Source: Blastococcus saxobsidens DD2
Lineage (GTDB): Bacteria > Actinomycetota > Actinomycetes > Mycobacteriales > Geodermatophilaceae
Reading direction: 5' to 3'
DNA length: 64,000 nt
Assembly: GCF_000284015.1 (NCBI RefSeq)
Contig: NC_016943.1
Location: forward strand, 1,963,541 to 2,027,540
The translations under genes were made by a program, and so were the position numbers. Of this stretch, positions 10 to 13,484 are shown piece by piece (position 1 is the first letter of the stretch; every line of letters starts with the position of its first letter). The notes below the pieces were generated by a model. That model did not search any database and was not told where the DNA came from. It worked only from the letters and a program-made list of their open reading frames with translations.

Positions 10-972
10 GTGACCGGAGTCCTGGCCGTCGGCCCGGTGGCCGTCTTCGTGCTGGTGGGTGTCGTGGTTCTGGTGGTGCTAGCAGCCACTGCAGTCAGAC
101 GCAGGCAACTGGCGCCTGCAGTTGCCGATGCCCGGCGGTACGGCCTGTCCACCAACGGGCTCTCTGTGGCATTGGGGGGCGTCGCTGGCGTTGCCGTTGC
201 CCTGGGAGACCTCGCCGGCCGTCTCGGATCGGGCGTGTCGATTGCGCTGGCACCGCTGGTGTTCGGCGTCGTGCACACCGCGGTCCTGGGTGTGGGCGAG
301 AAGCTGTGGCCCCGTCCCCGTGGCGCGGTGCGAACTGCGGGTCTCACTCCGCGGCGCTTCCCGTCCAGTGTCCGGTGGCTGCGAACGATCTATGGCTCGG
401 TGGTGCTGGTGGTCGTGGCAACGTGCGCCGCCGGTTGGTCCACGGCCGGCGCCGATGGTCGCTCGTTCACCACCACCCCGCCATCGCCTCCTGGACTGGA
501 CGTGGTCGTTGGCCCCAGCACCACCGGCCCCTATCCCGGAGACGTTTTTGCGCTGCCCGCCCTCATCGGGACCGGCCTGCTCGTACTGCTCACCTGGCTG
601 ACCGTGCAGGCTGCGCTGAATCGGTCGGCGGTGCCCGCCGACGAAGCGAGCGAGCGGACACTGCGGGGAGCCTCCATCCACCGCGTGCTGCGCGGCTCCA
701 CCTCGGCCCTGCTGCTCCTGCTGGCTGGGCTGTGGTTCGTGGCAGGGGCGGCGCTCCACACTGCCGCCCAGGACACCTTGGTGGGCATCGAGGGGGCCAC
801 CTACGTCATCGAGGGCGGGCCCGGACTCGAGGTGATCGGCGTTGCGGCGATGATCGCCGGGGGATTCGCCGCTGTCGCCGCACTGGTGCTGCTGCTCCTG
901 CCCGCCCCGCGACTGCGGCCGGCACCTCCGGCCCCGCCGGCTGCCCAGACACCGTCACCGGTGGTGGTGTGA
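10..972 (+). CDS. Polytopic membrane protein coupled to a GntR regulator
   Basis: This 320-residue hydrophobic protein has about seven likely membrane segments (roughly residues 5-27, 50-70, 75-97, 128-145, 185-203, 232-253 and 273-297) and no catalytic domain that I recognise. It starts with GTG, with GGAG at 1-4 as ribosome binding site. Its promoter lies outside the window. Its TGA overlaps the GTG of the next gene (969), so the two are translationally coupled. YtrA-type GntR regulators are often encoded beside the membrane or transport proteins they control, which suggests an envelope or transport role. The Pro-rich tail (about 300-320) is probably disordered. The function is not established. 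Confidence 0.75.
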   Translation: MTGVLAVGPVAVFVLVGVVVLVVLAATAVRRRQLAPAVADARRYGLSTNGLSVALGGVAGVAVALGDLAGRLGSGVSIALAPLVFGVVHTAVLGVGEKLWPRPRGAVRTAGLTPRRFPSSVRWLRTIYGSVVLVVVATCAAGWSTAGADGRSFTTTPPSPPGLDVVVGPSTTGPYPGDVFALPALIGTGLLVLLTWLTVQAALNRSAVPADEASERTLRGASIHRVLRGSTSALLLLLAGLWFVAGAALHTAAQDTLVGIEGATYVIEGGPGLEVIGVAAMIAGGFAAVAALVLLLLPAPRLRPAPPAPPAAQTPSPVVV

Positions 973-1376
973 CCGCCACCGACCCGGCACCGCTGACCCT
1001 TCGGATCGATGTCACCTCGGCGGTACCGGTCTACGAACAGCTGCGCACCCAGGTCAGCGCCCTCGTCAGTGCGCGGCGCCTTGTCCGCGGCGACCGGCTG
1101 CCCGCAGCCCGCGCGCTTGCCGCCGATCTTGGCATCGCCGTGGGAACCGTGGCACGGGCCTACCGGGAACTGGAGACCGGCGGGTGGGTCACCTCCCGCC
1201 GCAGGACCGGCACCGTCATCGCCGGACCGATGCAGACGAACGACCCCGCACCCAGCGGCGCAACGGCCTCGGACCAGGTCGAACGCGCCGCCGATCACCT
1301 CGTGCGAATCGGCCGGGCCACCGGCCTCGATGACGACGCCCTGCTCACCGCGCTGCGTGGTGCTCTCCTGCGCTGA
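969..1376 (+). CDS. GntR family transcriptional regulator, YtrA-like
   Basis: A 135-residue DNA-binding protein. Residues about 13-86 form the GntR winged helix: PVYEQLRTQV is the first helix, DRLPAARALAADLGI the turn into the recognition helix, and GTVARAYRELE follows. The rest (about 87-135) is a short tail without the large effector domain of FadR or HutC types, which fits the YtrA subfamily. The GTG start at 969 overlaps the preceding TGA, giving a 4-nt GTGA junction. It probably controls its own operon in response to an envelope or small-molecule signal; that part is inference. Confidence 0.85.
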   Translation: MTATDPAPLTLRIDVTSAVPVYEQLRTQVSALVSARRLVRGDRLPAARALAADLGIAVGTVARAYRELETGGWVTSRRRTGTVIAGPMQTNDPAPSGATASDQVERAADHLVRIGRATGLDDDALLTALRGALLR

Positions 1377-1734: not shown

Positions 1735-1765
1735 TGTCCCTGAGCGCGCCGGCCGTTCTGGGACA
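1735..1765. repeat. Palindromic repeat, copy 1 (divergent)
   Basis: Outer arms TGTCCC (1735-1740) and GGGACA (1760-1765) are intact, but the interior is longer (19 nt) and only partly like the other copies. It lies 15 bp beyond the stop of the minus-strand gene at 1780. Confidence 0.6.
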
Positions 1766-1779
1766 CCGGCGGAGGTTCC

Positions 1780-2235
1780 TCAAAGCACGTTCGGCAAGGT
1801 GCGAACCACGAAGTGCTCGTCTACGAGTCGCCCGTCGCTGTAGAGCCGTAACCGGTAGAGCCCTGAGCCGTCGCCCTGCATCAGCGTCACCTTCTTTCGT
1901 TCGAAGTCCGCCCGCGCCTCCTCGGATGTCAGCCACCACGACTCTGACGGAGGTGGGCGCAGTCGGTGCGGAATGCGGACTTCGACGTGATGTTGTCCGG
2001 TCATCGAAGGCGGACCGTGCTTGGCGATACCGCCGCCGAGGCCTTCCAGGCGAGCGAGCCTCGGCCTACCGACGACATAGGTAACGCGCCCACGCTTGTC
2101 TTGCCGAACGCCGAGCCAGTCGTAGTGACCACTCTCGATCTTGGCGTACAACACCTTGGGACTGGCACAGAACTCGATGACGCCGTAGAGCTGCTGGCCA
2201 GGTCTCTTGTCCTCGTAGGACCGTTCCGAAGGCAC
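1780..2235 (-). CDS. Hypothetical accessory protein
   Basis: A 151-residue soluble protein that I do not recognise. The GTG at 2235 begins VPSERSYEDKRPGQQ, and credible protein follows (QQLYGVIEFC, then several charged and aromatic stretches such as SWWLTSEEARADFERKK). The frame stays open upstream to 2550, but that extension is Pro/Arg/Ser-rich and crosses a palindromic repeat, so I do not accept it. The gene lies between repeats at 1735 and 2300 and looks like one unit of a small accessory array. Ribosome binding is weak, so the start is uncertain. Confidence 0.5.
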   Translation of the reverse strand: MPSERSYEDKRPGQQLYGVIEFCASPKVLYAKIESGHYDWLGVRQDKRGRVTYVVGRPRLARLEGLGGGIAKHGPPSMTGQHHVEVRIPHRLRPPPSESWWLTSEEARADFERKKVTLMQGDGSGLYRLRLYSDGRLVDEHFVVRTLPNVL

Positions 2236-2299
2236 GCGGGCGACTCTGCCGCAGGTGGGCTGATGGTGGGCGCGAACTGACTGGCACGCCGCCGAAAGG

Positions 2300-2326
2300 T
2301 GTCCCTGAGTGGGCCGCCCAGGGACA
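2300..2326. repeat. 27-bp palindromic repeat, copy 2
   Basis: Outer arms TGTCCC and GGGACA enclose the core AGTGGGCCGCC. The two halves are nearly perfect reverse complements around a central G. This copy lies between two divergent genes (starts 2235 minus and 2429 plus), unlike the others, which follow a stop codon. A further GGGACA occurs at 2339-2344. Confidence 0.8.
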
Positions 2327-2428
2327 CAAGGTGCCTTTGGGACATCCGTCGCCAGGGCCGTCCCCTGCCCGAGTGGAGTTCGCGTGCGGATGCGGTCGTC
2401 AGGGGGATCGGTCGCTAGCGTCGGCTGC

Positions 2429-2611
2429 ATGTCGCGGCCCGCTGGCACTACCAGGCGCTTCTGGCTGCTCCTCGTCCTCTGGTCCGCCGTTGGAGCCGTC
2501 ATCGGCACTGTGCTCGGGCAACTGCTTGGGCTGGCCGGAGTCGGGGTCATCGTTGTTCTGCTCGCGGTCGGCGGGCTCGTCCTCTACCGGCATCAGCGAG
2601 GACGTCGCTGA
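2429..2611 (+). CDS. Small two-span membrane protein
   Basis: A 60-residue protein: a basic start (MSRPAGTTRR), two hydrophobic spans (about residues 11-33 and 35-53) joined by a short Gly-containing turn, and a basic end (YRHQRGRR). This is typical of small bacterial inner-membrane proteins. The ATG at 2429 is the last start that keeps both spans; the upstream extension of the frame has poor composition. It lies between palindromic repeats at 2300 and 2615, the second only 3 bp after the stop. No family assigned. Confidence 0.55.
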   Translation: MSRPAGTTRRFWLLLVLWSAVGAVIGTVLGQLLGLAGVGVIVVLLAVGGLVLYRHQRGRR

Positions 2612-2614
2612 CTG

Positions 2615-2640
2615 TGTCCCTTAAGTGGGCCGCTTGGGGT
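2615..2640. repeat. Palindromic repeat, copy 3 (one arm degenerate)
   Basis: The TGTCCC arm and the core AGTGGGCCGCT are clear, with one extra base between them. The right arm has decayed to GGGGTC. It lies between two convergent genes, 3 bp after one stop and 17 bp beyond the other, so it could act as a bidirectional terminator. Confidence 0.7.
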
Positions 2641-2657
2641 CGAGCCAGGCCTCAGGC

Positions 2658-3416
2658 CTATGAGCCGAAGGTATCCCACTCTGGCCCCGCGAAGGGATCA
2701 ACGCCGGCTGGCAGGGTGCCGTTCAGGCGGACAAGGAGTCGAAGATGTGGATTCGTCTCTACTCCGTTAGCGACCTCCACGGCGGCCGCCATCTCTTTGA
2801 GGGCATGGATATAGCCAGTCAGCGGCCGAGGTACGTAGCCCAGCAAGAGGCCGCCAGTGTCGTGGACACCAACGGCGAAAGGATCTGCGGGATTGCTCGG
2901 CTCTGGGGCCAAGGTCAGCGGCTCGCCAGTTGACAGGCGAGCGATTCGCTCACTCGCTGCAGACCCTCGGTAGCGCACACCATGCGCCATGAACAGTGCG
3001 CGCGTCGCTCCACTAGCGTCAATAACTGGCATTGGGACAAGTTCGATGTTGTCTCCGCGCCGGTGACCTCCAGAGTGGGTCAACACCTCAAGAGGTGTGG
3101 CGTCCTCGCCGAGATTCAGCGTCCGGAGATACTCCAGGCGATCCGGGCGGCGGGGACTGATCACTCGTTCGGCAAACAGCGGGAACAGATACGGCCGTTC
3201 GTACACCCGCTGGGTCTCCGGGAAGCCCAGCAGAGATATGAACCCGTCAGCTTCGACGGCTCGGCGTAGGTAGGCGAAGGAGTAACGCTCCGGCGTTGCG
3301 GTCAGGACTCCCACGGCTTGGTAGTCACCGTCCGGTCGCCGGACGGTGACGATCAGGCGTCCCGTGTCCCTGGCCTCACCAGAGGTCTCCGCGTCGGGGA
3401 GCAGGACAGACGTCAC
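2658..3416 (-). CDS. HIRAN-domain partner of a HipA-like kinase
   Basis: A 252-residue protein with two parts. Residues about 20-100 have the look of a HipA N-terminal or couple_HipA-like module (YSFAYLRRAVEADGF, then LFPLFAERVISPRRPDRLEY). Residues about 146-240 form a HIRAN domain (GVRYRG, NPADPFAVGV, LLLGYVPRPL), a fold known to bind DNA ends in other proteins. The GTG at 3416 overlaps the TGA of the kinase gene by 4 nt, so the two are translationally coupled. Together they resemble a HipA toxin split into separate polypeptides, with the HIRAN domain perhaps supplying DNA or partner recognition. Roles as toxin or antitoxin are inferred. Confidence 0.75.
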   Translation of the reverse strand: MTSVLLPDAETSGEARDTGRLIVTVRRPDGDYQAVGVLTATPERYSFAYLRRAVEADGFISLLGFPETQRVYERPYLFPLFAERVISPRRPDRLEYLRTLNLGEDATPLEVLTHSGGHRRGDNIELVPMPVIDASGATRALFMAHGVRYRGSAASERIARLSTGEPLTLAPEPSNPADPFAVGVHDTGGLLLGYVPRPLTGYIHALKEMAAAVEVANGVETNPHLRLLVRLNGTLPAGVDPFAGPEWDTFGS

Positions 3417-4336
3417 GACCGGATCCTCTCTTGGTTGATGGCCAGCAGGTTTGACACGAACGTACGTGTCGCCGGTGACAAGTTCGGGACTGCGTCCACC
3501 AGAGCATGACACCGATCAGCGCTCACGCTCGCGATGCGGCTGGTCCAGTAAGCCCGTGCGGGTGAACCGGCCCGCTGCAGCGCCTCCCGGGCGAACGCCA
3601 CCAGGGGAGTTCTGCCCATGTCCTCGAAGCGGTGCGCGAAGCCACGTTCGCACCAACGACGGAGCTGGCCGTGAGCGACGAGCTGCCCCCGGTTCTGATC
3701 CATGAGCCCCGATCCGAGCGCAGACCCGTGGTCGAACGTCGGCGCCAGACGGAGCTCACCGGCGGGACCATGCAGAACGGCCCAGTTGTACTCATGTCGG
3801 TCCGTGTTGGCGATCCACGCGTCGAAGAGAAGTAAGCCGGCGAACACGTCGAAGGCCGGCCAGTCGGTGTACTCGGTATGCGGAGGACCGTGCGCGTCGG
3901 CTAGGACTCGCTGGATGTTGTCGAGGTTGTGCCCGATCCGGTTGGGCCTCTTGTCTGCGCTATCGCGCGGGCGGTAGTTCTCGTCTACGCCGCCGATAAG
4001 CACGCCGCCGCCGTGCATGGCCCACTCCCACGGGCGCAAGTCGCGCGACATCGAGCCGCGCTGCCCGTCGAGCACGGCGAACTCCACCTGTGCCGCGGGG
4101 ATGCCGACGAAGGCGGCGAGTTCGGCGCTGAGCTTCTCGGCCCAATCCTCACCTCGTCGATACATCCTGACTAGGTCGGGCTGGTCCTGAGGAGGCTTCA
4201 GCGTCTTCACCGTAGGCGGCTTGTAGAGCCACCTGGTGTGCTCGCTGCGCGGATCGGTAAGCCAGACCTTGGCTTCGTCACCGCCGGGCTCAAAATCCTC
4301 CCGTGTCCAGTCCTGGACGTCGAGCAGGGCGAACAC
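3413..4336 (-). CDS. HipA-like Ser/Thr kinase (HipA_C domain)
   Basis: A 307-residue kinase of the HipA/CtkA type. Visible elements are the ATP-binding Lys in WLYKP (K39), the Gly/Ser loop GSMSRDL (about 94-100), the catalytic motif NTDRHEYN (N177, D179, R180, H181, N184) and the metal-binding D202 in FDHG. These match the HipA signature, so it is probably active. HipA kinases phosphorylate targets such as glutamyl-tRNA synthetase and cause growth arrest; the target here is unknown. The start is GTG at 4336 with a poor ribosome binding site. No HipB-type HTH antitoxin is next to it; the only partner is the coupled HIRAN protein. The pair lies between palindromic repeats at 2615 and 4471. Confidence 0.85.
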   Translation of the reverse strand: MFALLDVQDWTREDFEPGGDEAKVWLTDPRSEHTRWLYKPPTVKTLKPPQDQPDLVRMYRRGEDWAEKLSAELAAFVGIPAAQVEFAVLDGQRGSMSRDLRPWEWAMHGGGVLIGGVDENYRPRDSADKRPNRIGHNLDNIQRVLADAHGPPHTEYTDWPAFDVFAGLLLFDAWIANTDRHEYNWAVLHGPAGELRLAPTFDHGSALGSGLMDQNRGQLVAHGQLRRWCERGFAHRFEDMGRTPLVAFAREALQRAGSPARAYWTSRIASVSADRCHALVDAVPNLSPATRTFVSNLLAINQERIRS

Positions 4337-4470
4337 GCCTGAGACCGTAGTGAAGACGGCGGACCAGCTGCCCTGCGGCGCGCTGTACGGCTTCCTGCAA
4401 TCATCGCGGGGTCTGACCGCGTAAGCATCGGCGCCTGCTGGTCACATCGCACGGGCGACCCGCGGCTGCC

Positions 4471-4497
4471 TGTCCCTTAACGGCCCACTACGGGACA
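4471..4497. repeat. 27-bp palindromic repeat, copy 4
   Basis: Arms TGTCCC and GGGACA flank the core in inverted orientation (CGGCCCACT). It lies 19 bp beyond the stop of the minus-strand gene at 4517. A degenerate second copy (CCCTGAGTGCCCTGGG) follows at about 4501-4516, reaching the stop codon. Confidence 0.8.
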
Positions 4498-4516
4498 GTC
4501 CCCTGAGTGCCCTGGG

Positions 4517-4966
4517 TCAGCGACCGGACGGGCTCCACCGAACAGCGACGGCGAGCATGCCGATAAAGGCGACCACCGCGACGCAGCCCAGCACGACTGA
4601 CACCGCAGAGAGCCAGTTCAGCGTTTCCGCCAAGTCGGGACGCCACGCGAGGATGGCGTTCGGAATGATCGCGGCTCCCCAGGTGGTCATCGCTACGTCG
4701 GACAACTGTCTCGCGCGGCCTACTGAGGGCTCGTCCTTTACATCAGGGTCGGACCATGCCCTTCGCAGGAACCCGAGACCAATCAGGGCGAACACGAAGG
4801 CGCTGAGTCCGAGAACGGCCACGATGGTTTCGAGCCCGGTAGCGATGGCCGCACCGACAAAGACCATCAAGAGCACCAACGCTGCCATGCACAAGATGAG
4901 GCCAGTCCGACGCCACGCGCGCAGCGTCGGCAGCCCAACTGGCGCGGGCCCTTGCGCGGCGCTCAT
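4517..4966 (-). CDS. Four-span membrane protein, unknown function
   Basis: A 149-residue protein with four likely membrane segments in two pairs (about residues 20-40, 43-63, 92-112 and 120-142) separated by a charged cytoplasmic loop (RRAWSDPDVKDEPSVGRAR). The ATG at 4966 has a good ribosome binding site (GGAAGG, 6 nt upstream), which decides the start over the longer frame to 5071. It lies between palindromic repeats at 4471 and 5078. No family recognised. Confidence 0.65.
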   Translation of the reverse strand: MSAAQGPAPVGLPTLRAWRRTGLILCMAALVLLMVFVGAAIATGLETIVAVLGLSAFVFALIGLGFLRRAWSDPDVKDEPSVGRARQLSDVAMTTWGAAIIPNAILAWRPDLAETLNWLSAVSVVLGCVAVVAFIGMLAVAVRWSPSGR

Positions 4967-5077
4967 GTCGCCACCTTCCTGCTCAGGGGAACCGAGGGCC
5001 GAATGTACGAGCCTCTGCCCGAGGGGCGTCCCGTTCGCCGGCCGGATCACCCGAACAGGGTTTCCTCCCAACTCGGG

Positions 5078-5104
5078 CGCCCCTTAGCGGCCCACTATGG
5101 GACA
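5078..5104. repeat. 27-bp palindromic repeat, copy 5
   Basis: The right arm GGGACA is intact and the core AGCGGCCCACT is the exact reverse complement of the core in copy 3. The left arm is degenerate (CGCCCC). It lies 35 bp beyond the stop of the minus-strand gene at 5140. Confidence 0.75.
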
Positions 5105-5139: not shown

Positions 5140-5601
5140 CTACGAGCGGCCTCCTAGCCAGTGGCGCAATTCCGTCGCTCGCTGCTCCAACTGTCGCCGT
5201 TGGCCAGGCACAGGCAACGTATCGGTGGCGACCAGGGGCAGTTGGGTTCCGTCCTTGAGCAGGAGTTCGAGTCGCCGCCAGGACCCGATCCCACCTTGGC
5301 GTCGCAGGATCACCCGGTCGACGTCGGAGCGCTGAAGCCGTCGGGTCGTCAGACGGTTCCGCACTTCGAGCAAGCCCTCAGGGCGCGCCCGGACGCGAGT
5401 AAACGCGGCCGCGACCACGGATCCGAGTGCGCCAACAGCGAGGGCCATAAAGGCGATTGTGAGCAACAGCGGAAACGGGACGGTAGGGACAAGGAACATG
5501 AGGAGGACGGCTGCGACCACGACGACGCCGTAGAAGGCTCGAGTCAGAGGCGGTGAACGAAGCTCAGGAAAGACGTCTGAGGAGGCCACGGTGCAGATCA
5601 T
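5140..5601 (-). CDS. PH-domain membrane protein (bacterial PH6-like)
   Basis: A 153-residue protein with two membrane spans near the N-terminus (about residues 23-42 and 44-66) followed by a small beta-rich cytoplasmic domain (GLLEVRNRLTTRRLQRSDVD, LELLLKDGTQLPL) ending in WLGGRS. This is the layout of bacterial PH-domain proteins seen widely in actinobacteria. I chose the ATG at 5601; the frame is open to a TTG at 5679, and neither has a strong ribosome binding site. The function is unknown. It closes the repeat-separated accessory block. Confidence 0.55.
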   Translation of the reverse strand: MICTVASSDVFPELRSPPLTRAFYGVVVVAAVLLMFLVPTVPFPLLLTIAFMALAVGALGSVVAAAFTRVRARPEGLLEVRNRLTTRRLQRSDVDRVILRRQGGIGSWRRLELLLKDGTQLPLVATDTLPVPGQRRQLEQRATELRHWLGGRS

Positions 5602-5714
5602 GGTGCGCCGTGCGGTGGACGTGGCCTTGGCCTGCGCCAAAGCACCCACAAGTGTCTCTGAAGCCGCCTTCAGGGCCAAAGTTTGCCGCTCGCGGCACTA
5701 GCGGCGAGAGGGCC

Positions 5715-6560
5715 TCAGCTCTGAAAACTCAGCGGCACGTCGACCGCCACCCGCAGCGGCCGATCGGGCTCTCGGATGATGCGCACTGCGCAGGTGAGCG
5801 GGAACCCGGCGGCGTGAGCCGCGAGCAGCGGCGGCAGAACCTCCGCGGCGCTCTCCACCCGGCCGACAGCATCACCGTCGAGTGAGAGCACCCCGTCCGT
5901 GGACAGCACGCCCACTCGGCGATGCACGAACCGCTTCGCGCGGCTCGGCATGGCCGCGTCCCACCGTGCCGGCCCGAGGACGCTCACCCGCGACCCGGTG
6001 TGCGGTGGCAGGAACGGCGCATCCGGCCCGGCGGCCGCAGGTTGGGCCGGCTGCAGCAGGGCCAGCCCGAAGTTGCGGGCACCGTCGCCGTCCCTCGTCT
6101 CGTCCCCGCCGAACAGGTCGAAGCTCAGCACCCCGCCCCCGCCGACGATCGCGGCCCGGCAGGTGGCCGGGAGGCCCTGCTCCGTGAGAGCAGCCACCAC
6201 CGGCCGGTAGGCCTCCACCCTGCCCGCGGGCACCGACCCGGCCCGACGCCCGGCCAGGTACACCCCCACCGCCCCGGCGTAGTCGCCGCTCTCCACCACC
6301 GCCAGCTGCACCGTCACCAGGTCCGCAACAGGTGACTGCGACCGGAGCTGGCGGTCGGTGTCGGCTAGCAGCCCCTGATGGAAGGACGTGCCGGCCACCG
6401 GGCGCTGTGCGCCTGCCTCCGCCAGCGTGGGCACGGCCAGCCAGCTCGTCGGGACCGCAGGGGGCGCAGTGGGCGCCTCGGCGGCGAGGTCGTCCACCGC
6501 CCCCGCCTGCTCGCGGCCAACGCCCGGTGCGGGCTTACGGAACCGATCGAACACGCTCAT
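5715..6560 (-). CDS. HIRAN-like accessory protein of the mobile element
   Basis: A 281-residue soluble protein. The start at 6560 gives MSVFDRFRKP with GAGAG about 10 nt upstream. Residues about 1-55 are low-complexity Ala/Pro. Residues about 85-150 (VESGDYAGAVGVYL, AGSVPAGRVEAYRPVVAAL, LPATCRAAIVGG) resemble HIRAN-type or related modules of actinobacterial proteins where a predicted backbone is scanned by position (AEAYRPVLxxL, CRAxIVGG). The C-terminal half has no family I know. Its position beside the relaxase suggests it belongs to the mobile element. The HIRAN link is moderate, from pattern memory only. Confidence 0.6.
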   Translation of the reverse strand: MSVFDRFRKPAPGVGREQAGAVDDLAAEAPTAPPAVPTSWLAVPTLAEAGAQRPVAGTSFHQGLLADTDRQLRSQSPVADLVTVQLAVVESGDYAGAVGVYLAGRRAGSVPAGRVEAYRPVVAALTEQGLPATCRAAIVGGGGVLSFDLFGGDETRDGDGARNFGLALLQPAQPAAAGPDAPFLPPHTGSRVSVLGPARWDAAMPSRAKRFVHRRVGVLSTDGVLSLDGDAVGRVESAAEVLPPLLAAHAAGFPLTCAVRIIREPDRPLRVAVDVPLSFQS

Positions 6561-7104: not shown

Positions 7105-7509
7105 AGCGTGAACGTAGACGCCCCGGCATCCTCGACAGTCCCCCCGTCCCCCTGGGGCGCCCCGGCGATCACGGGGAGAGAGCAAATGTTCATTGCGGGG
7201 TCCAGGTCCAGGCGCCGAGCAGAAGAACGGCCTACGGGCAGGGCTGCAGAGTGTCCCTAAGCGCCTCATCAGCCACCAATAGCCGGGCGGACGAGATATG
7301 CATTGCAGCCAACAATTTCCATAAACGACAAGCGGAATGAGGCCTGCAACGACTGACCGCCCGGAACTTCTAAGATCTCCCGCGCATGCCCAAGGCTTCA
7401 CCAAGGAGCGGCACGCATGCTACCAATAGCGGTAGATCGGGCCTCGCTTCGCGGGGCCCATCGCCGTTTCTGGGGGTGACGTGTTGACCATTATTGGGTG
7501 GCGCTGAAT
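7105..7509. other. Intergenic region upstream of relaxase, candidate oriT
   Basis: About 400 bp without a supported gene, and with clearly lower GC between 7280 and 7370 and around 7480-7515 than its surroundings. ATATGCAT occurs at 7296-7303 and again at 7508-7515. A truncated palindrome-like TGTCCCTAAG lies at 7252-7261. In MobF elements oriT commonly lies upstream of the relaxase gene, so this is the best place for it; no nick site can be named. Confidence 0.35.
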
Positions 7510-10500
7510 ATGCATGGCGGAATGAAGATCTACGCCGGCGCTGCTTCGGCGGCCCGCCACTACGTGGAAGCCGACCGAGGCCGGGCTGATGACTACTACC
7601 TATCCGAGGGAACCGGCATCGCGCGCCGCTACACCGCCGGCGACGGTCGGACGCAGGAGCTGGCGCCTCTGACCGGCGACGCCTACGAGGCATGGGTCGC
7701 GGGCCTGGACCCGGACACCGGAACGGCCCGCGGTTGGTTGCGGACCGACGGCCGCGCGGTGCGGTTCGTCGAGGTGGTGGTCAACGGCCCGAAGTCCTGG
7801 TCGCTGGCCGCCGCCCTGCACCCAGACGTCGCCGACGCCTACGACGCCGCGCAGGACCGGGCCGCGACTCAGGTCATCGGCTGGCTGACCGAGCACGCTA
7901 CGACGCGGGTGGGGCCGCGCGGCGGGCAGGTACAGGTGCCGGTGGAGGTGCTGGAGGCGGTGACGGTGCAGCACTACACCTCCCGGGCCGGAGATCCGCA
8001 CCGGCATCTGCACCTGCAGGTCAACGCCCGGGTGTTCGCCGCCGGGGGATGGCGCGGTCTGCATACCGTGGGCGTGCGCGACTCGCTGGCCGCGATCAAC
8101 GGCATCGGGCACGCCGCGGTGGCCTGCGATCCACAGTTCCAGGCCGCGCTGGCCGCGCACGGGTACACCCTGGACGGCACCGGAGAAATACGGGAGCTGG
8201 CCCAGTACGTGGGTGCCTTCAGCGCTCGGGCGGCGCAGATCGAACGCCACCGGGGCCGCTACGAACAAGAGTGGATCGCCGCGCACCCCGGCGAGGTTCC
8301 GGGGCCGGGGCTGCGGCGGGCGTGGGATGCGCGGGCGTGGGCCGAGGGCCGCCCGGACAAGGTCACCCCGCAGCCGGGTGCGGACGTCACGGCCCGATGG
8401 CTGGCCGAGCTGGCCGCCCTCGGGTATCGCGACACCGGACGTCCCGTCGACCTGATCCCGGTGCCGGTCGGCGGGGTAGACCGCGACGGTGCGGTTGACC
8501 GGGTGCTGAGCCTGCTGGCCGCCGAGCGCTCGGCGTGGAACGCCGCCGACGTCCGCGGCGAGGTCGAGCAGCTGATCGCCGCCGCGGGCGTCGTCGTCGG
8601 CGCCGCGGTCCGCCTTGAGCTGGCCGAGGACCTCACCGCCCGCACCATGGCGCGCTGTGTGCCGCTGCTTGACCGTGACGGCGTTCCTGAGCACATCCGG
8701 GCCTGGACCTCGCAGCCGGTGCTCGACGTCGAGGCCGACCTCACCGACCGGTTCGCCGCCCGCAGCGCTCGCTCCATGACCGATCACCAACGGGAGCCTG
8801 AGCTGCCGCTGGCCGCGCTCGCGCGGCTGGACGCCGGCCAAGCGGCTGCGGCCGCCTCCCTGGCCGGCGACCGGCCGCTGGTCGTCATCGAGGGTGCGGC
8901 CGGTGCAGGCAAGACCACCCTGCTGGCCGCCACCCGCGACCTGCTTGAGGCCCAGGGCCGCCGGCTGACGGTGGTCACCCCGACGCTCAAGGCGGCCAAG
9001 GTCGCCGCTGCCGAGGTGGGCACCGCCGCCGGCTCGGCTGCCTGGCTGGCCTTCCAGCACGGCTGGCGCTGGACCGACGAGGGGACCTGGAGCCGGCTGG
9101 CCGCCGGTGACGCCGAGCCGCGCACCGGAGGCGTCTACGCCGGGCCGGAGCCAGGGGCGAGCCTCATGCCCGGGGACCTGCTGGTGGTGGACGAGGCCGG
9201 GATGCTCGACCAGGACACTGCCCGCGCGGTGCTGACCCTCGCCGACGAGTACGGGATGCGCCTGGCGCTGCTCGGCGACCGGCACCAGTTGGCCGCGGTC
9301 GGCCGCGGCGGCGTGCTGGACCTCGCCGCCGGTCAGGTCGATCCGGCCGCGCACCTGACCCTGCAGACGGTGCACCGCTTCACCCGCACCGACCAAGCCG
9401 GCCGGACGACACCGGACGTCGAGTACGCCGACCTGACCCTGGCCATGCGCACCGGCGCCGAACCGGGCGCGGTCTTCGACACCCTGGCCGCCCGCGAGCA
9501 GATCCGCTTGCACGTCGATCCTGCGGCGCTACAGGAGGCGCTGGCCGAGGTTGTCGCCGAGCATCACCGCGATGGCGAGCGGGTGGCCGTGGTGGTCGAC
9601 ACCCGCGAGCAGGCCAGCGACCTCAACGCGGCCATCCGCGAGCGGCTGGTCGCCGACCGCCGCGTCGACGACGTCCGGGTCGCGGTCACCGGCGCCGGGC
9701 AGCGGATCGGAGTCGGGGACCGGGTCGCCACCCGCCGCAACGTCCGCGACTTGGGGGTGGCCAACCGCGACGTCTGGACCGTCATCGCCGTTGGCCCCGG
9801 CGGGGAGCTAACCGTCATCCCGGGCGATGTCACCCCGGCCGACGCCGTCCCTGCCGGTGTCACCCGGGTGAGGACGGGGGAGCGGGTGCTGCCCGCCGGC
9901 TACGTCACCTCCTATGTGGAGCTGGCCTACGCCAGCACCGCGCACGGCGCGCAGGGTGACACCGTCACCGCGGCACACCTGGTGGTCGGCGAGCACACCG
10001 GTGCGGCGTCGGCCTACGTCGGCATGACCCGCGGCCGCACCGCCAACACCGCCCACCTGATCGCCGCCGATCTGGCCGAGGCGCGCGGGCAGTGGATCGC
10101 CGTGTTCGGTCGCGACCGAGCCGATCTCGGCCCGGGCCATGCCGCCGCTCAGGCCGCCGCCGAAGCGGCCGGCTACGCCGCACCCCGCCCCCTGGAGCAG
10201 GTGCTGGCCGATCTGCGCGCGGCGTGGACGGTCGAGCAGCGCTGCTCCGATCGGCTGGCGGTCCTGGAGCCGTGGTGCGACGCCCTGCGCCAGGCCGTGG
10301 CGCTCGAGGCAGCCCACGGCGGCGAACTCACGCGGCTGGAAGCCGACCACGAACAGGCGACTCGCACCGCCCAGCGAGCGACACAGCGGGTCGAGGTCGC
10401 CGCTGCTGTCCTCGCCCAGGCAGCCGACCGGATCCGCGATGGACTGCTCGCCGCCTGGGACGGCGAGCGCGGCGCCGCCCGCGCCGCGGCCCGGGTGGTG

Positions 10501-11145
10501 CTCGACGGGCCCGGCCGGTGGGGACTCAAGCGCGCACCCGTCGCCCGCGCCAGTGAGCAACTGGCCGGCTGGGCCGATCGGTGGCGCCCGCACCTGCCCG
10601 ACCTGCCCACCGACGCCGAGCGGCTCGCCCGGGTGGCCGACCGGTTCGACGACCGGCCGGCGCTGTGGAGGGCGTTCGACACCACCGCCCACCGGGCCGC
10701 CGAACGGGACCACCACGAACGCCACTCACTGCACGCCGCGGCCGAAGCGGCTGGGCGGGTCGGTGAGCAGGCCCGTCTCGCACTGACCGACGCCCACCGC
10801 CGGCGCCAGGAACGGCTCGACCCGCTCGGGCCGATCGCTTGGGCACCCGATCCCGCAGGGCGGCTGGCCGACCTCGAGCGCCACGTCGCCACCGCACGGC
10901 ACGAGCTGGCTGGCGCACAGGCCCGCATCGGCCGACTCGCCACGGAGCCGGCCCTGCTGGGTCAGCCGCCCGACCGGCTCACCGTAGCCCGGAAGGCCTG
11001 GCGCGGACGCCGCGACACCGGGCATCACCGGCGCCCAGCAGTCACGCCGGGGCCGGCCGGCGACCGGTCGGGGGTCCCACGACCCGAGTCCGAGCGTTCC
11101 GGGCCGCGGGCCACGCCTGGTGCCGCCCCGGGCCTGGGGCGGTGA
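7510..11145 (+). CDS. MobF family relaxase-helicase (TrwC/TraI-like)
   Basis: A protein of about 1211 residues that would nick oriT and unwind the transferred strand during conjugation. The N-terminal TrwC relaxase domain (about 1-300) shows the tyrosine pair in DDYYLSEG and the metal-binding triad PHRHLHLQ (H164, H166, H168). A superfamily I helicase follows: Walker A GAAGAGKTT at about 462, Walker B VVDEAGML at about 559, GDRHQLAAVGRGG, and the late motifs STAHGAQGDT and YVGMTRGRT. The C-terminal 300 residues are Ala/Arg-rich and helical. I prefer the ATG at 7510 (GGGTGG 9 nt upstream); GTG 7498 and ATG 7522 are alternatives. The type IV secretion apparatus must come from elsewhere. Confidence 0.93.
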   Translation: MHGGMKIYAGAASAARHYVEADRGRADDYYLSEGTGIARRYTAGDGRTQELAPLTGDAYEAWVAGLDPDTGTARGWLRTDGRAVRFVEVVVNGPKSWSLAAALHPDVADAYDAAQDRAATQVIGWLTEHATTRVGPRGGQVQVPVEVLEAVTVQHYTSRAGDPHRHLHLQVNARVFAAGGWRGLHTVGVRDSLAAINGIGHAAVACDPQFQAALAAHGYTLDGTGEIRELAQYVGAFSARAAQIERHRGRYEQEWIAAHPGEVPGPGLRRAWDARAWAEGRPDKVTPQPGADVTARWLAELAALGYRDTGRPVDLIPVPVGGVDRDGAVDRVLSLLAAERSAWNAADVRGEVEQLIAAAGVVVGAAVRLELAEDLTARTMARCVPLLDRDGVPEHIRAWTSQPVLDVEADLTDRFAARSARSMTDHQREPELPLAALARLDAGQAAAAASLAGDRPLVVIEGAAGAGKTTLLAATRDLLEAQGRRLTVVTPTLKAAKVAAAEVGTAAGSAAWLAFQHGWRWTDEGTWSRLAAGDAEPRTGGVYAGPEPGASLMPGDLLVVDEAGMLDQDTARAVLTLADEYGMRLALLGDRHQLAAVGRGGVLDLAAGQVDPAAHLTLQTVHRFTRTDQAGRTTPDVEYADLTLAMRTGAEPGAVFDTLAAREQIRLHVDPAALQEALAEVVAEHHRDGERVAVVVDTREQASDLNAAIRERLVADRRVDDVRVAVTGAGQRIGVGDRVATRRNVRDLGVANRDVWTVIAVGPGGELTVIPGDVTPADAVPAGVTRVRTGERVLPAGYVTSYVELAYASTAHGAQGDTVTAAHLVVGEHTGAASAYVGMTRGRTANTAHLIAADLAEARGQWIAVFGRDRADLGPGHAAAQAAAEAAGYAAPRPLEQVLADLRAAWTVEQRCSDRLAVLEPWCDALRQAVALEAAHGGELTRLEADHEQATRTAQRATQRVEVAAAVLAQAADRIRDGLLAAWDGERGAARAAARVVLDGPGRWGLKRAPVARASEQLAGWADRWRPHLPDLPTDAERLARVADRFDDRPALWRAFDTTAHRAAERDHHERHSLHAAAEAAGRVGEQARLALTDAHRRRQERLDPLGPIAWAPDPAGRLADLERHVATARHELAGAQARIGRLATEPALLGQPPDRLTVARKAWRGRRDTGHHRRPAVTPGPAGDRSGVPRPESERSGPRATPGAAPGLGR

Positions 11146-11354
11146 GCGGGCGCCCCTTCCCGTGCGGCCGCTGCACTGCGCGGGAGGCGACTGGAGGGGA
11201 ACCGCAGCCTGCCGACCTACGGTGCGCCACCACCGGAGCCGGTCTCCTGCCGGACGCCATCACCGGGCCCCAAGCGCCAGGCCATGACCGCAGGCGCTCC
11301 CACCTCCTGAACGACCGGCGACAGGAGCGGAACGGGAGGAAGACAGGAGCCTGA
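11142..11354 (+). CDS. Small coupled ORF after the relaxase
   Basis: The GTG at 11142 overlaps the relaxase stop in a GTGA junction, the pattern of translational coupling used repeatedly in this window. The 70-residue product starts MSGRPFPCGRCTARE, has a CxxC knuckle and one more Cys (LRC), and ends in a basic, probably disordered tail. It could be a small zinc-binding accessory protein of the element or a chance frame. The coupling is the main argument. Confidence 0.4.
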   Translation: MSGRPFPCGRCTAREATGGEPQPADLRCATTGAGLLPDAITGPQAPGHDRRRSHLLNDRRQERNGRKTGA

Positions 11355-11451
11355 CCGGAGAAGTTGGCTGTGGGCTGTCACCAATGGTCACGAAATGGCG
11401 CCTTCTGCAGGTGGCGCCCCGCCCATGTCCGCCGAGCCCCCGGAGACCGCC

Positions 11452-11685
11452 ATGCCCGACCAGACCCCCGGCCGCGATCACACCGCCGAGCCACCGTCCG
11501 AGCTGCTCACCATCGCCGAAGCCGCTCAGCTGCTGCGCGCCCCGGTCGCCACCCTCCGGTACTGGCGCCACCTCGGCACCGGTCCGGCCAGCTTCCGCCT
11601 CGGCCGCCGCGTCCTTTACCGTTCCGACGACCTGCGCGCCTGGATCGACGCCCAGCACGGCCAGGACCGCGCCGGTCGATCTTGA
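11452..11685 (+). CDS. Excisionase-type helix-turn-helix protein
   Basis: A 77-residue DNA-binding protein of the HTH_17/MerR-like excisionase group: LLTIAEAAQLLRAPVATLRY forms the helix-turn-helix, RLGRRVLYRSDDLRAWI the wing and closing helix. I start at ATG 11452 because GGAGA lies 5 nt upstream; earlier ATGs at 11395 and 11425 add low-complexity sequence. Small HTH proteins encoded near an integrase usually act as recombination directionality factors or transcriptional regulators of the element. Either is likely here, with the integrase 650 bp downstream on the same strand. Confidence 0.8.
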   Translation: MPDQTPGRDHTAEPPSELLTIAEAAQLLRAPVATLRYWRHLGTGPASFRLGRRVLYRSDDLRAWIDAQHGQDRAGRS

Positions 11686-11696
11686 CGGATCCTGTT

Positions 11697-11972
11697 GTGT
11701 CCGACAATACTGGCGGCTTGGAGATCCGGTTCACCCAGTCGGCGCGCAAGCATCGCATCGGCCGGACCTCCGCCCGCCACGTCCTGGCTGGCACCCGGCC
11801 GACGCCGGTCACCGCCACCAGCGGGGCCGACGCCTGGCTCTACGTCGGCCTCGACGAACGGGGCCGGGAACTGGAGATCATCGCCGTCGAGGTGCAGCCG
11901 GCCGACGGCGGCCAGCACTACCTGCTGGTCATCCACGTGATGCCGACCCACCTCCGAGGAGACAGCCCGTGA
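11697..11972 (+). CDS. BrnT-like candidate toxin
   Basis: A 91-residue basic N-terminus (FTQSARKHRIGRTSARHVLAG) leads into beta strands (WLYVGLDERGRELEIIAVEV, LLVIHVMPTHLR). The size, the KHRIG motif and the strand pattern resemble the BrnT/RelE-like fold of type II toxins. The GTG at 11697 has no clear ribosome binding site and starts 11 nt after the HTH gene. Its TGA overlaps the GTG of the next gene (11969), as in toxin-antitoxin operons. Here the putative toxin comes first, as in BrnTA. Assignment is by pattern and context. Confidence 0.6.
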   Translation: MSDNTGGLEIRFTQSARKHRIGRTSARHVLAGTRPTPVTATSGADAWLYVGLDERGRELEIIAVEVQPADGGQHYLLVIHVMPTHLRGDSP

Positions 11973-12292
11973 CCGAGCGCACCCCGCCACCCATCACCTC
12001 CAGCACGCCGATCGGACCCGACGTCGACCTCGACCGGGACGACGTCCGACTGACCGACGGAACCCGGCTGACCGAGCAGAAGGCCGCGGACATCGTCGAC
12101 GAGGTCCGGCGCCGCGGCGGCCGGCCCTCCCTCACCGGCCGGGCCGCCGTCTCACCGCGCATCGCCTTCCGCGTCGACCCCCGCGTCCGGGACAGCGCCG
12201 CCCAGATCGCCGACCGAGAAGGCAAGACCATCTCCCAACTGGCCCGCGAGGCGCTCGAGGCGCGGGTCGCCGCAGAGCGATCGACCTCATGA
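11969..12292 (+). CDS. BrnA/CopG-like candidate antitoxin
   Basis: A 107-residue protein. The C-terminal part (about 65-103: RIAFRVDPRVRDSAAQIA, then GKTISQLAREALEARVA) has the pattern of a ribbon-helix-helix DNA-binding unit. The N-terminal part is acidic and probably disordered, suited to wrapping a toxin. The GTG at 11969 overlaps the preceding stop by 4 nt, with GAGGAG just upstream. It would neutralise the preceding protein and autoregulate the operon, if the toxin-antitoxin reading is right. Confidence 0.65.
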   Translation: MTERTPPPITSSTPIGPDVDLDRDDVRLTDGTRLTEQKAADIVDEVRRRGGRPSLTGRAAVSPRIAFRVDPRVRDSAAQIADREGKTISQLAREALEARVAAERSTS

Positions 12293-12338
12293 AGCTGGGT
12301 CGGTATCGCTCCGCCTGAGTTGCAGATCGGAGAGGCTC

Positions 12339-13484
12339 GTGGCTTTTCGCAGCATCCAGGACCGGTGGTACGTCATCGACCCGGCCACGGGGAAGCGTGT
12401 CCCGAGCGCCCGGCACGGGCAGGGGATGCGCTACCGGGCGCGATACAAGGACGCCGCGGGCAAGGAGGTCACCCGGGCGTTCCCCGACAAGGAAAAGTCC
12501 AAGGCGCAGCGGTGGCTCGACGAGGTCACGACCAGCCAGGTGACCGGCACCTACGTCGACCCCAAGACCGCCCGGACGACGGTCGCCGACTGGTGCGCGA
12601 CCTGGCTGGCCGGCTACACCACCCGCCGCCCGCGCACGGTGCGGCAGGCCCGGGTGCACGTCGCCCAGATCACCGCCGCGTTCGGTCCGATGCCGCTCTC
12701 GGCGGTGCGGCCGTCCTCGGTCCGCTCGTGGACGGTGGAGCTCAAAGCCGCCGGCCTGGCCGACAGCTACGTCTACGCGCTGCACTCGCGGCTGTCGCAG
12801 GTCATGAGCGACGCCGTGCACGACGGGCTGCTGGCGCGCAACCCGTGCTCGCGCCGCACCTCACCAGGGGCTGGCGGTCAGCGCCCCTACGTCGCGACGA
12901 CCGAGCAGGTGTGGGCGCTGCACGACGCGGTCGCCGACCACCTGCGCCCGGCGATCCTGCTCGGGGCGTTCGTCGGGCTGCGGACCGCCGAGGTCGTCGG
13001 GCTGCGGGTCTGGGACGTCGACTTCATGCGCGGCGTCGTGCGGCCGGTGCAGCAGGGCGACGGCGAGCCGCTCAAGAGCGAGACGTCCCGCACGCCGCTG
13101 CCCATCCCGCAGGAGCTGTCGGTGCAGCTCTCGGCGGCGGTGGCGCGATGGGGCGGGGACCACGTCGTCACCGACGGCGCCGGCCGGCAGACCTCGACCT
13201 GGGCGATCGAGCGCGCGATCCGCTCGGCCCGGACGACGATCCCCGGGCTGCCCGACGCCTTCCGCTTCCACGATTTGCGGCACTACCTGGCCTCGCTGCT
13301 CATCGGCAGCGGGCTCGACGTCAAGGTCGTCCAGCACCGACTTCGACACGGCAGCGCCAAGACGACGCTGGACACCTACGGCCACCTGTGGCCCGACAGC
13401 GACGAGTCCGCACGGGCCGCCGTCGGTGCTGTGCTGGCCGCTCGTGGGGACTGGCTGGGGACTGAGCGGGCTGACCTGCGGTAA
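12339..13484 (+). CDS. int: Tyrosine recombinase/integrase of the mobile element
   Basis: A 381-residue phage-type integrase. The N-terminal arm-binding region (about 1-60) leads to a SAM-like core-binding domain (about 70-160) and the catalytic domain (about 185-375). Catalytic residues visible: Arg in GLRTAEVVGL, Lys in PLKSETSRTPL, His and Arg in FHDLRHYLAS, and the His plus nucleophile Tyr in RLRHGSAKTTLDTYGHL. The GTG at 12339 has GGAGAGG upstream. The gene is the last of the element and ends 26 bp from the 3' end of glnA, which marks the junction of the element with the conserved block. Its stop codon lies inside a large hairpin. Confidence 0.95.
   Translation: MAFRSIQDRWYVIDPATGKRVPSARHGQGMRYRARYKDAAGKEVTRAFPDKEKSKAQRWLDEVTTSQVTGTYVDPKTARTTVADWCATWLAGYTTRRPRTVRQARVHVAQITAAFGPMPLSAVRPSSVRSWTVELKAAGLADSYVYALHSRLSQVMSDAVHDGLLARNPCSRRTSPGAGGQRPYVATTEQVWALHDAVADHLRPAILLGAFVGLRTAEVVGLRVWDVDFMRGVVRPVQQGDGEPLKSETSRTPLPIPQELSVQLSAAVARWGGDHVVTDGAGRQTSTWAIERAIRSARTTIPGLPDAFRFHDLRHYLASLLIGSGLDVKVVQHRLRHGSAKTTLDTYGHLWPDSDESARAAVGAVLAARGDWLGTERADLR

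Follow-up and report, generated by a model that had tools for sequence, protein, structure and literature searches.

Small accessory genes in the family Geodermatophilaceae are very probably held in cassette arrays whose borders are formed by two classes of short site, and we consider it likely that these arrays and a tyrosine recombinase encoded within some of them jointly make up a gene-cassette capture system. The starting point was a 64,000-bp stretch of the Blastococcus saxobsidens DD2 chromosome (bases 1963541 to 2027540 of the 4.875-Mb genome, NC_016943.1; here G000), called the window throughout, in which copies of a 27-bp site separate unrelated small genes. Site A is this 27-bp site, TGTCCCNNAGTGGGCCGCTNNGGGACA; site B is 26 bp long, TGTCCCTGAAGGCGGCTTCAGGGACA. 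Genomes are labeled G and fetched regions, or loci, L, each with a number. The sites, their order, the exchange of units cut at the sites, and the association of the recombinase with arrays are directly supported by the comparisons below. Our confidence in the joint reading is tempered because most arrays come without the recombinase gene and because circular intermediates and enzyme activity are arrived at indirectly.

Two classes of site in a fixed order

The initial annotation of the window had described five copies of one near-palindrome. Three of these, at 2300 (+), 4471 (-), and 5078 (-), fit site A with one, one, and two mismatches, respectively, where 0.01 matches would be expected in the shuffled window; the copies at 1735 and 2615 are looser. 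New with respect to that annotation are the B sites that bracket the array, hence a second site class, as well as the convergent layout and the recombinase.

Allowing up to three mismatches, the complete genome holds 14 distinct A places at four loci: a single array (1044892 to 1051364) has eight of them and the window three, and the remaining loci, at 3.927 and 1.365 Mb, have two and one, respectively; the reversed A pattern had no match in this genome. All five B copies of the genome lie at the edges of A arrays. A random scatter over intergenic sites had been named beforehand as an outcome that would speak against a cassette system; the copies in this genome are few and clustered. In the large array (L015), as judged by eye, most intervals hold one or two small genes, and one is broken by a transposase gene, assigned to the IS4 type by a single Pfam match.

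The profile search of actinobacterial genomes that the annotation had proposed returned a family-specific site. At up to two mismatches, A was present in 29 of 97 relatives, that is, in 29 of 57 genomes of its own family and 0 of 40 genomes of other families of the order. At up to three mismatches, it was found in 77 of the 112 Geodermatophilaceae genomes that make up our family set (reversed control, 0/112), and B was found in 65 of the 112; the highest A counts, as matches over both strands, were 29 in G135 and 23 in G126. Seven of 394 genomes sampled from the class had A at the same threshold, two of them members of the family and five with single three-mismatch matches; this is chance level, given the similar frequency of the reversed control (six genomes). 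A 25-base form of A occurred in 46 stretches of an 84,980-species collection, and all 46 carry titles naming Blastococcus, Modestobacter, Geodermatophilus, or Geodermatophilaceae. Viral contigs had no exact A site. When the arms alone (TGTCYC...GRGACA) were sought in the fetched regions, two interior lengths stood out, 15 bases (64 matches) and 14 bases (27 matches), against one match for each in the shuffled control; one copy is doubled in this count, since L018 overlaps the window.

The two classes follow each other in a consistent order. Position weight matrices (PWMs) for A and B were trained on 82 regions (1.29 Mb), and at 17 bits shuffled sequence gives one A and no B. For 81 B sites, the nearest A downstream within 3 kb was on the same strand in 66 cases and on the opposite strand in 2, with none in 13; any A upstream was seen for only 9 of them. 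These regions had been chosen for A, and 40 further regions were fetched around B as a check. Their 48 B sites gave the same strand in 25 cases, the opposite strand in 1, and none in 22 (one such region, L289, nearly duplicates L118 at its edges). Where A occurs on both strands, in 11 regions, 10 have their A sites converging, 8 of them within 4 kb and two, L286 and L313, wider apart. Median spacing is 697 bp from B to A (n = 70) and 569 bp from A to A (n = 54).

Inside the arrays, the right half of B, counted from 5 bits upward, follows 41 of 152 A sites, compared to 1 (upstream) and 2 (far) in control stretches; among the 29 strongest A+B composites, the gap is 1 to 2 bp in 12 and 15 to 21 bp in 17. 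These counts indicate that interior junctions are often of the form A-spacer-B, with B starting the array and A ending it. Sites also avoid genes: an overlap with a called gene was seen for 82 of the 271 strong sites, while the calls, made by a simple and crude caller, cover 84% of the regions.

Two further observations concern the surroundings of the sites. Just downstream of A at L098, L099, L105, L106, L116, L124, L125, and L170, a sequence of some 60 bp resembling GCCGCATCGGCAGGGCGAACGTTGGCGGCCGGGGTACTAG was noticed by eye to be conserved; its possible roles are those of a promoter or an attachment sequence, or it may belong to a cassette family. Genes that we take to be DUF222/HNH-like are found no more than 300 bp from an array edge, inside or outside, at L120, L128, L129, L133, L110, L166, and L127. 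They were set aside; they recur near arrays without a fixed layout.

Exchange of units cut at the sites

Among 161 units bounded by sites, 96 have one called gene, 42 none, and 23 two or three. A Pfam scan of 140 of the 147 listed open reading frames (ORFs) matched 80 families, 61 of them represented by one ORF each; these include alpha/beta hydrolases and HxlR, glyoxalase-like, DinB, GNAT, Imm53, and AbiEii-like proteins. The window array carries HIRAN, HipA_C, and bacterial PH domains; three of its units gave no match, and a GntR regulator stands next to a further ORF that had none.

An all-versus-all comparison of regions from different genomes yielded 366 homologous stretches. Homology ended within 15 bp of a site in 69 of 1,392 cases, where 15.3 were expected and the maximum in 500 random shifts was 36. 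One unit is common to three genomes (L133, L139, and L146) at 95 to 97% identity, in flanks that are unrelated; in L133 and L139 the shared homology runs from B to A. The window unit at 4517 to 5071 has a 70% relative in G034 (L166, 7520 to 8053) that ends at the A(+) site at 8030. In genus g7, one locus has both flanks 93 to 95% identical in five genomes (L155, L247, L258, L259, and L246) and differing content: L155, L259, L258, and L247 hold B and one to four A sites, and L246 has a degenerate B, no A, and other DNA. The same left flank occurs without B in L249 to L252 and L254, and the right flank without A in L248, L253, and L255 to L257. Units that differ between related genomes are thus cut at the repeats, as had been anticipated for a capture system, at the homology ends overall, at the g7 locus, and in the unit of L133, L139, and L146.

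The alignments also bear on where within the site the exchange takes place. L111 and L119, which have a left flank in common, remain identical up to and including TGTCCCTGAAGGCGGC, beyond which they differ; L101 and L108 agree through GGCGGCT. Conversely, where the same unit stands behind different flanks, agreement starts from GGGACA and at the right end extends through TGTCCCTAGGTGGGCCGCT (L133/L139). The two bases preceding GGGACA differ in most pairs shown. Taken together, the break points of flanks and units assign the junction to GC(Y)T|NN|GGGACA in A as well as in B.

One could instead regard each B...A unit as a nonautonomous transposon, resembling a miniature inverted-repeat transposable element or an element of the single-strand type, with A and B as its ends and the arrays as tandem insertions. 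The units do have a left (B) and a right (A) end in fixed orientation, and tandem insertion would also yield A+B junctions. Moreover, 3 of 12 outer B pairs (L163, L286, and L314) share an 8- to 9-bp word in the outer 60 bp. This number, however, is within the shuffled range (mean, 1.05; maximum, 5 in 500), and the 12 outer B pairs show no consistent target duplication. In L111/L119 and L101/L108, the left half of B, through GGCGGC, stays with the shared left flank, and a unit retains the right half only; this division of B between flank and unit implies a break inside the site. Nor is any transposase family prominent in the cargo (two IS110 and one IS4 among 140 ORFs), and IS110-type elements interrupt A sites. 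We regard a transposon origin of the units as unlikely.

At L163, whose outer B sites are at 6177 and 11755, the two copies of an 8-bp direct repeat are found 0 and 3 bp beyond these sites, which may be chance or the trace of an insertion. The IS110-type elements split A at T|TAGGGACA; the insertion of L097 (from 8442) is at this same place, and those of L140 (from 8940) and L165 (from about 6050) are at the mirror-image position of the opposite arm. They were typed by Pfam for 2 of 140 ORFs and by cluster membership. The element is a site-specific parasite of the array.

A different possibility is that the sites are passive repeats, either bidirectional terminators or hairpins like the repetitive extragenic palindromic (REP) sequences, and that ordinary homologous recombination exchanges the units. 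This would agree with quasi-palindromic sites that lie near stop codons, and both a shared terminator and a mobile repeat had been among the readings offered by the initial annotation, together with a check for folded RNA. The hairpin-then-T-run arrangement of an intrinsic terminator is, however, nearly absent: a T-rich stretch was found downstream of 3 of 233 sites (so that 230 lack it) and on the other side of 2 of 233. Neither in A (145 unique sites) nor in B (72 unique sites) did any of 13 arm pairs covary above shuffled columns, which speaks against a folded RNA, and gene orientation is mixed. Like REP sequences and bacterial interspersed mosaic elements, A and B are imperfect palindromes between genes, and some REP sequences are likewise targets of the IS110/IS1111 family (PMC11187229). 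Unlike such repeats, the sites have only 14 (A) and 5 (B) places in the 4.9-Mb genome and are confined to four loci, in strict order (B, then A) and strand, with unit exchange cut at repeats of 26 to 27 bp. It is therefore quite improbable that the sites are passive, and the mobile-repeat reading fits poorly. The data favor the remaining suggestion of the annotation, an attC-like site of an unknown gene-capture system.

A tyrosine recombinase at the meeting point of arrays

A tyrosine recombinase gene of about 300 codons was first found in L165, between A(+) and a split A(-). At an E value below 1e-30, 11 of the 112 family genomes have a relative, and in 8 of these it reaches 59% identity or more; the same search found no close copy in the genome of the window. 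In 6 of the 8 genomes with close copies, or 5 of 7 when the discovery genome is left aside, A or B sites lie within 1.5 kb of the gene. With interior B sites omitted, the layouts are B+ A+ A+ (weak A+) int A- A- A- A- B- in L313, B+ A+ x7 int A- A- B- in L314 (int at 9350 to 10246), and B+ A+ A+ int (split A-) A- x4 B- in L165. In each of these loci, 4 bp separate the stop codon of the recombinase gene from the GGGACA end of an A site. Part of L313 coincides with L059, which comes from contig NZ_FOWE01000002.1 of Geodermatophilus obscurus DSM 43161. Among the other copies, that of G111 is frameshifted, that of G098 is a fragment with a stop, and that of G124 is split over two contigs (L316 at 17171 and L319 at 380), with no A within three mismatches.

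A protein search (7,998 candidates scored) gave 163 relatives at an E value below 1e-10, and among the 120 of them listed, the named ones are from Geodermatophilus and Blastococcus. The protein matches PF00589 (Phage_integrase). In 55 sequences R151 is invariant, and K177, H240, R243, H266, and Y276 are at least 90% conserved; we take these to be the catalytic R-K-HxxR-H-Y residues. Matches to sequences in the PDB are XerD, XerA, a Xer-like archaeal protein, and Gp33, the Brujita integrase, and an AlphaFold model (predicted local distance difference test, 84.6; predicted template modeling score, 0.67) matches the folds of XerA, Brujita Int, lambda Int, and IntI. Seven relatives score 54 to 94 bits on the XerC and XerD equivalog models (cutoffs, 335 and 330).

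The best phage relatives are the integrases of Gordonia phage Howe and of Arthrobacter phages, at about 37% identity (109 records at an E value below 1e-20); one plasmid record has 32%. Distant relatives in other families, at 34 to 44%, were found in 17 of 394 genomes (E value below 1e-40). A palindrome-pair test around 15 of these relatives gave nothing convincing, an uninformative outcome, since it also failed to pick up the known sites in L302 and L300. The Brujita integrase is not known to have an arm-binding domain and uses simple sites. By analogy, simplicity of the Brujita type would suit sites of 27 bp.

This protein is probably the enzyme acting on A and B. Nonetheless, the units might be moved by something else, either the host XerC/XerD, as proposed for the pdif modules of Acinetobacter, or island integrases at the array edges, with the array recombinase being mere cargo. 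A close copy of it is missing from most genomes that carry A sites, and other types of tyrosine recombinase stand at array edges, so another enzyme is conceivable. In size and in having two inverted arms around a short center, A and B also resemble dif-like sites. Against this, the array recombinase occupies the same place in three loci, 4 bp from A, and the integrases at the edges vary in type and in direction. The G+C-rich A and B sites moreover do not appear to resemble dif. The xrs cassettes tested in A. baumannii were not excisable (PMC11705084), which we also count against a role of XerC/XerD. Movement by another enzyme is, in our judgment, unlikely. Recombinases beside outer B sites (for example, in L141, in L165 at 427 to 1506, and in L281) were considered as the cassette integrase and rejected for the same variety of type and direction; they have the appearance of integrases belonging to the islands in which the arrays lie.

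Several observations weigh against a cassette system run by this recombinase. The gene is found in only 8 of 112 genomes, compared to A in 77. No site lies near it in G100 (19 kb read) or in G004 (a 5.6-kb contig), and among the repeat families listed from a search around both genes (for G100, 20 of at least 60), none resembled a site. In G124, the two sites beside the recombinase are B-like and point outward. Of 29 tyrosine recombinases found, 12 lie within 600 bp of a site on its outer side and are of several types, eight of them upstream of B and four downstream of A, with L165's own among the four. As to the arrays, 111 of 152 A sites have no recognized B half, L123 has two arrays back to back, 6.6 kb apart, and the unit shared by L146 begins at B and stops 40 bp from an opposite-strand A. 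The A sites of L095 and L120 differ throughout, beyond the proposed junction too. The 42 units in which the caller found no gene do not fit well, and gene orientation is weak, with 58 single genes along the site direction and 34 against it.

That leaves the question of whether this is simply an integron. The array logic, the attI-like boundary, and the cassette content would all accommodate a genuine integron whose IntI escaped detection and whose attC sites are of an unusual kind. No IntI match (TIGR02249) exceeded the cutoff in any of the 112 family genomes, with weaker matches in all 112 and in all 14 controls, and the seven relatives of the array recombinase score 31 to 52 bits on this model against a cutoff of 265. 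The sites are conserved in sequence, with no structural covariation. A hidden integron thus seems barely credible.

A working model and its relation to known systems

The system is best read as one that captures cassettes through site-specific recombination between short duplex sites and that operates in the manner of an integron, although it is not itself an integron. We infer the circles, the polarity of insertion, and the action of the recombinase on the sites, the circle model being derived from alignments. A cassette would be a small gene that opens with GGGACA, the right half of the site, and ends with TGTCCCNNAGTGGGCCGCT, the left part of site A. Excision between two direct A sites would give a circle with one A site, which the tyrosine recombinase would join to an A in the array or to the boundary B, with strand exchange at GC(Y)T|NN|GGGACA. 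Left junctions would thereby be B-like and right junctions A-like, and repeated insertion would build B-gene-A-gene-A. Arrays point inward, as B+ A+ A+ ... A- A- B-, around a meeting point that holds the recombinase in three genomes.

In the array of the window (Table 1), the central unit between A(+) and A(-) occupies the position that holds the recombinase in those three genomes. The PH-domain ORF probably has its true start at about 5603, since the start as called overlaps the B site. To the right of the array, at 7498 to 13484, a TrwC-type relaxase, an HTH_17 protein, and a phage-type integrase mark an adjoining mobile island. A scan of the window against Rfam at gathering scores returned nothing but a cyclic di-AMP riboswitch (RF00379; 56302 to 56480; 62 bits).

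Table 1. Sites and genes of the window array (window positions unless a genome position is stated)
Feature	Position	Strand	Basis or remark
Class B site, left outer boundary of array	G000 1963155-1963180	+	About 360 bp left of window
First interval, outer left B to 1735: 320-residue ORF (10-972) and GntR-type regulator (969-1376)	10..1376	+	320-residue ORF without Pfam match
Degenerate A-like site, 31 bp instead of 27	1735..1765	- (strand by eye)	TGTCCC-N19-GGGACA; arms intact, center different and longer
Unit, 166-residue ORF	1780..2280	-	No Pfam match
Class A site	2300..2326	+	Pattern and PWM matches
Weak class B right half after A site 2300 (short composite)	2327-2344		4.2 bits, under the 5-bit count threshold
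Unit, 59-residue ORF, probably membrane protein (by eye)	2430..2611	+	No Pfam match
Decayed class A site	2615..2642	+	One inserted base, right arm lost; 12.4 bits in PWM scan
Central unit, HIRAN-domain protein and HipA_C protein	2658..4336	-	Pfam
Class A site	4471..4497	-	Pattern and PWM matches
Unit, 184-residue ORF	4517..5071	-	No Pfam match; 70% identical DNA unit in G034
Class A site	5078..5104	-	Pattern and PWM matches
Unit, bacterial PH-domain protein	5140..5679	-	Pfam
Class B site, right outer boundary of array	5653..5678	-	B pattern/PWM

The likeness to integrons is considerable. Small accessory genes, each ended by a shared site, form arrays whose content is exchanged by cuts at the sites; a distinct boundary site, B, stands at the array end (orientation 66 versus 2 and 25 versus 1) as a putative entry point; and a tyrosine recombinase gene is linked to some arrays and absent from most. 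No close copy stands beside the window array, as is also the case for most arrays read, which recalls integron arrays without an integrase. IS110-type elements sit in A sites much as IS1111 members target attC (PMC11187229). In contrast to integrons, however, there is no IntI above the cutoff, and, unlike attC, the sites are 26 to 27 bp long, conserved enough in sequence for a PWM to find them, and without covariation (an attC covariance model was not run). The recombinase lies at the A end, between two inward arrays (L165, L313, and L314), and not beside a primary site, the outer B being far away, and genes stand in both orientations.

The pdif/xrs modules of Acinetobacter plasmids, which are attributed to XerC/XerD, share with A and B short two-arm sites of similar size that flank accessory genes. 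They differ from the arrays described here, some of which have a recombinase of their own and which are chromosomal, with two site classes in fixed order, G+C-rich sites, and unit exchange between genomes cut at the sites. Closest to the array recombinase among phage proteins are the Brujita-type integrases (Gordonia phage Howe and Arthrobacter phages). Such a phage integrates its own genome at attB, whereas here many copies of a short site border single genes.

On balance, we lean toward the view that this is a third bacterial gene-cassette system beside integrons and dif modules, in which two arrays converge on a small Brujita/Xer-like recombinase and the short duplex sites A and B share a crossover at NN|GGGACA, which occurs only in the Geodermatophilaceae, and whose recombinase was probably domesticated from a minimal phage integrase. 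In the literature searched, which excluded subscription papers and preprints, we found no earlier account of such cassette arrays in this family. For Actinobacteria, a large survey recorded no complete integron, one In0, and a few arrays without an integrase (PMC9024848).

If our reading is correct, cassette capture arose again in the Actinobacteria with other parts, namely, simple sites and a small recombinase, and the cassette principle would not be bound to IntI and folded attC sites. The compact pair of site and recombinase would be a candidate tool, and direct testing is possible because a named type strain, Geodermatophilus obscurus DSM 43161, has the recombinase and arrays together. Such a system would also explain the pool of exchangeable accessory genes in these desert and stone actinobacteria.

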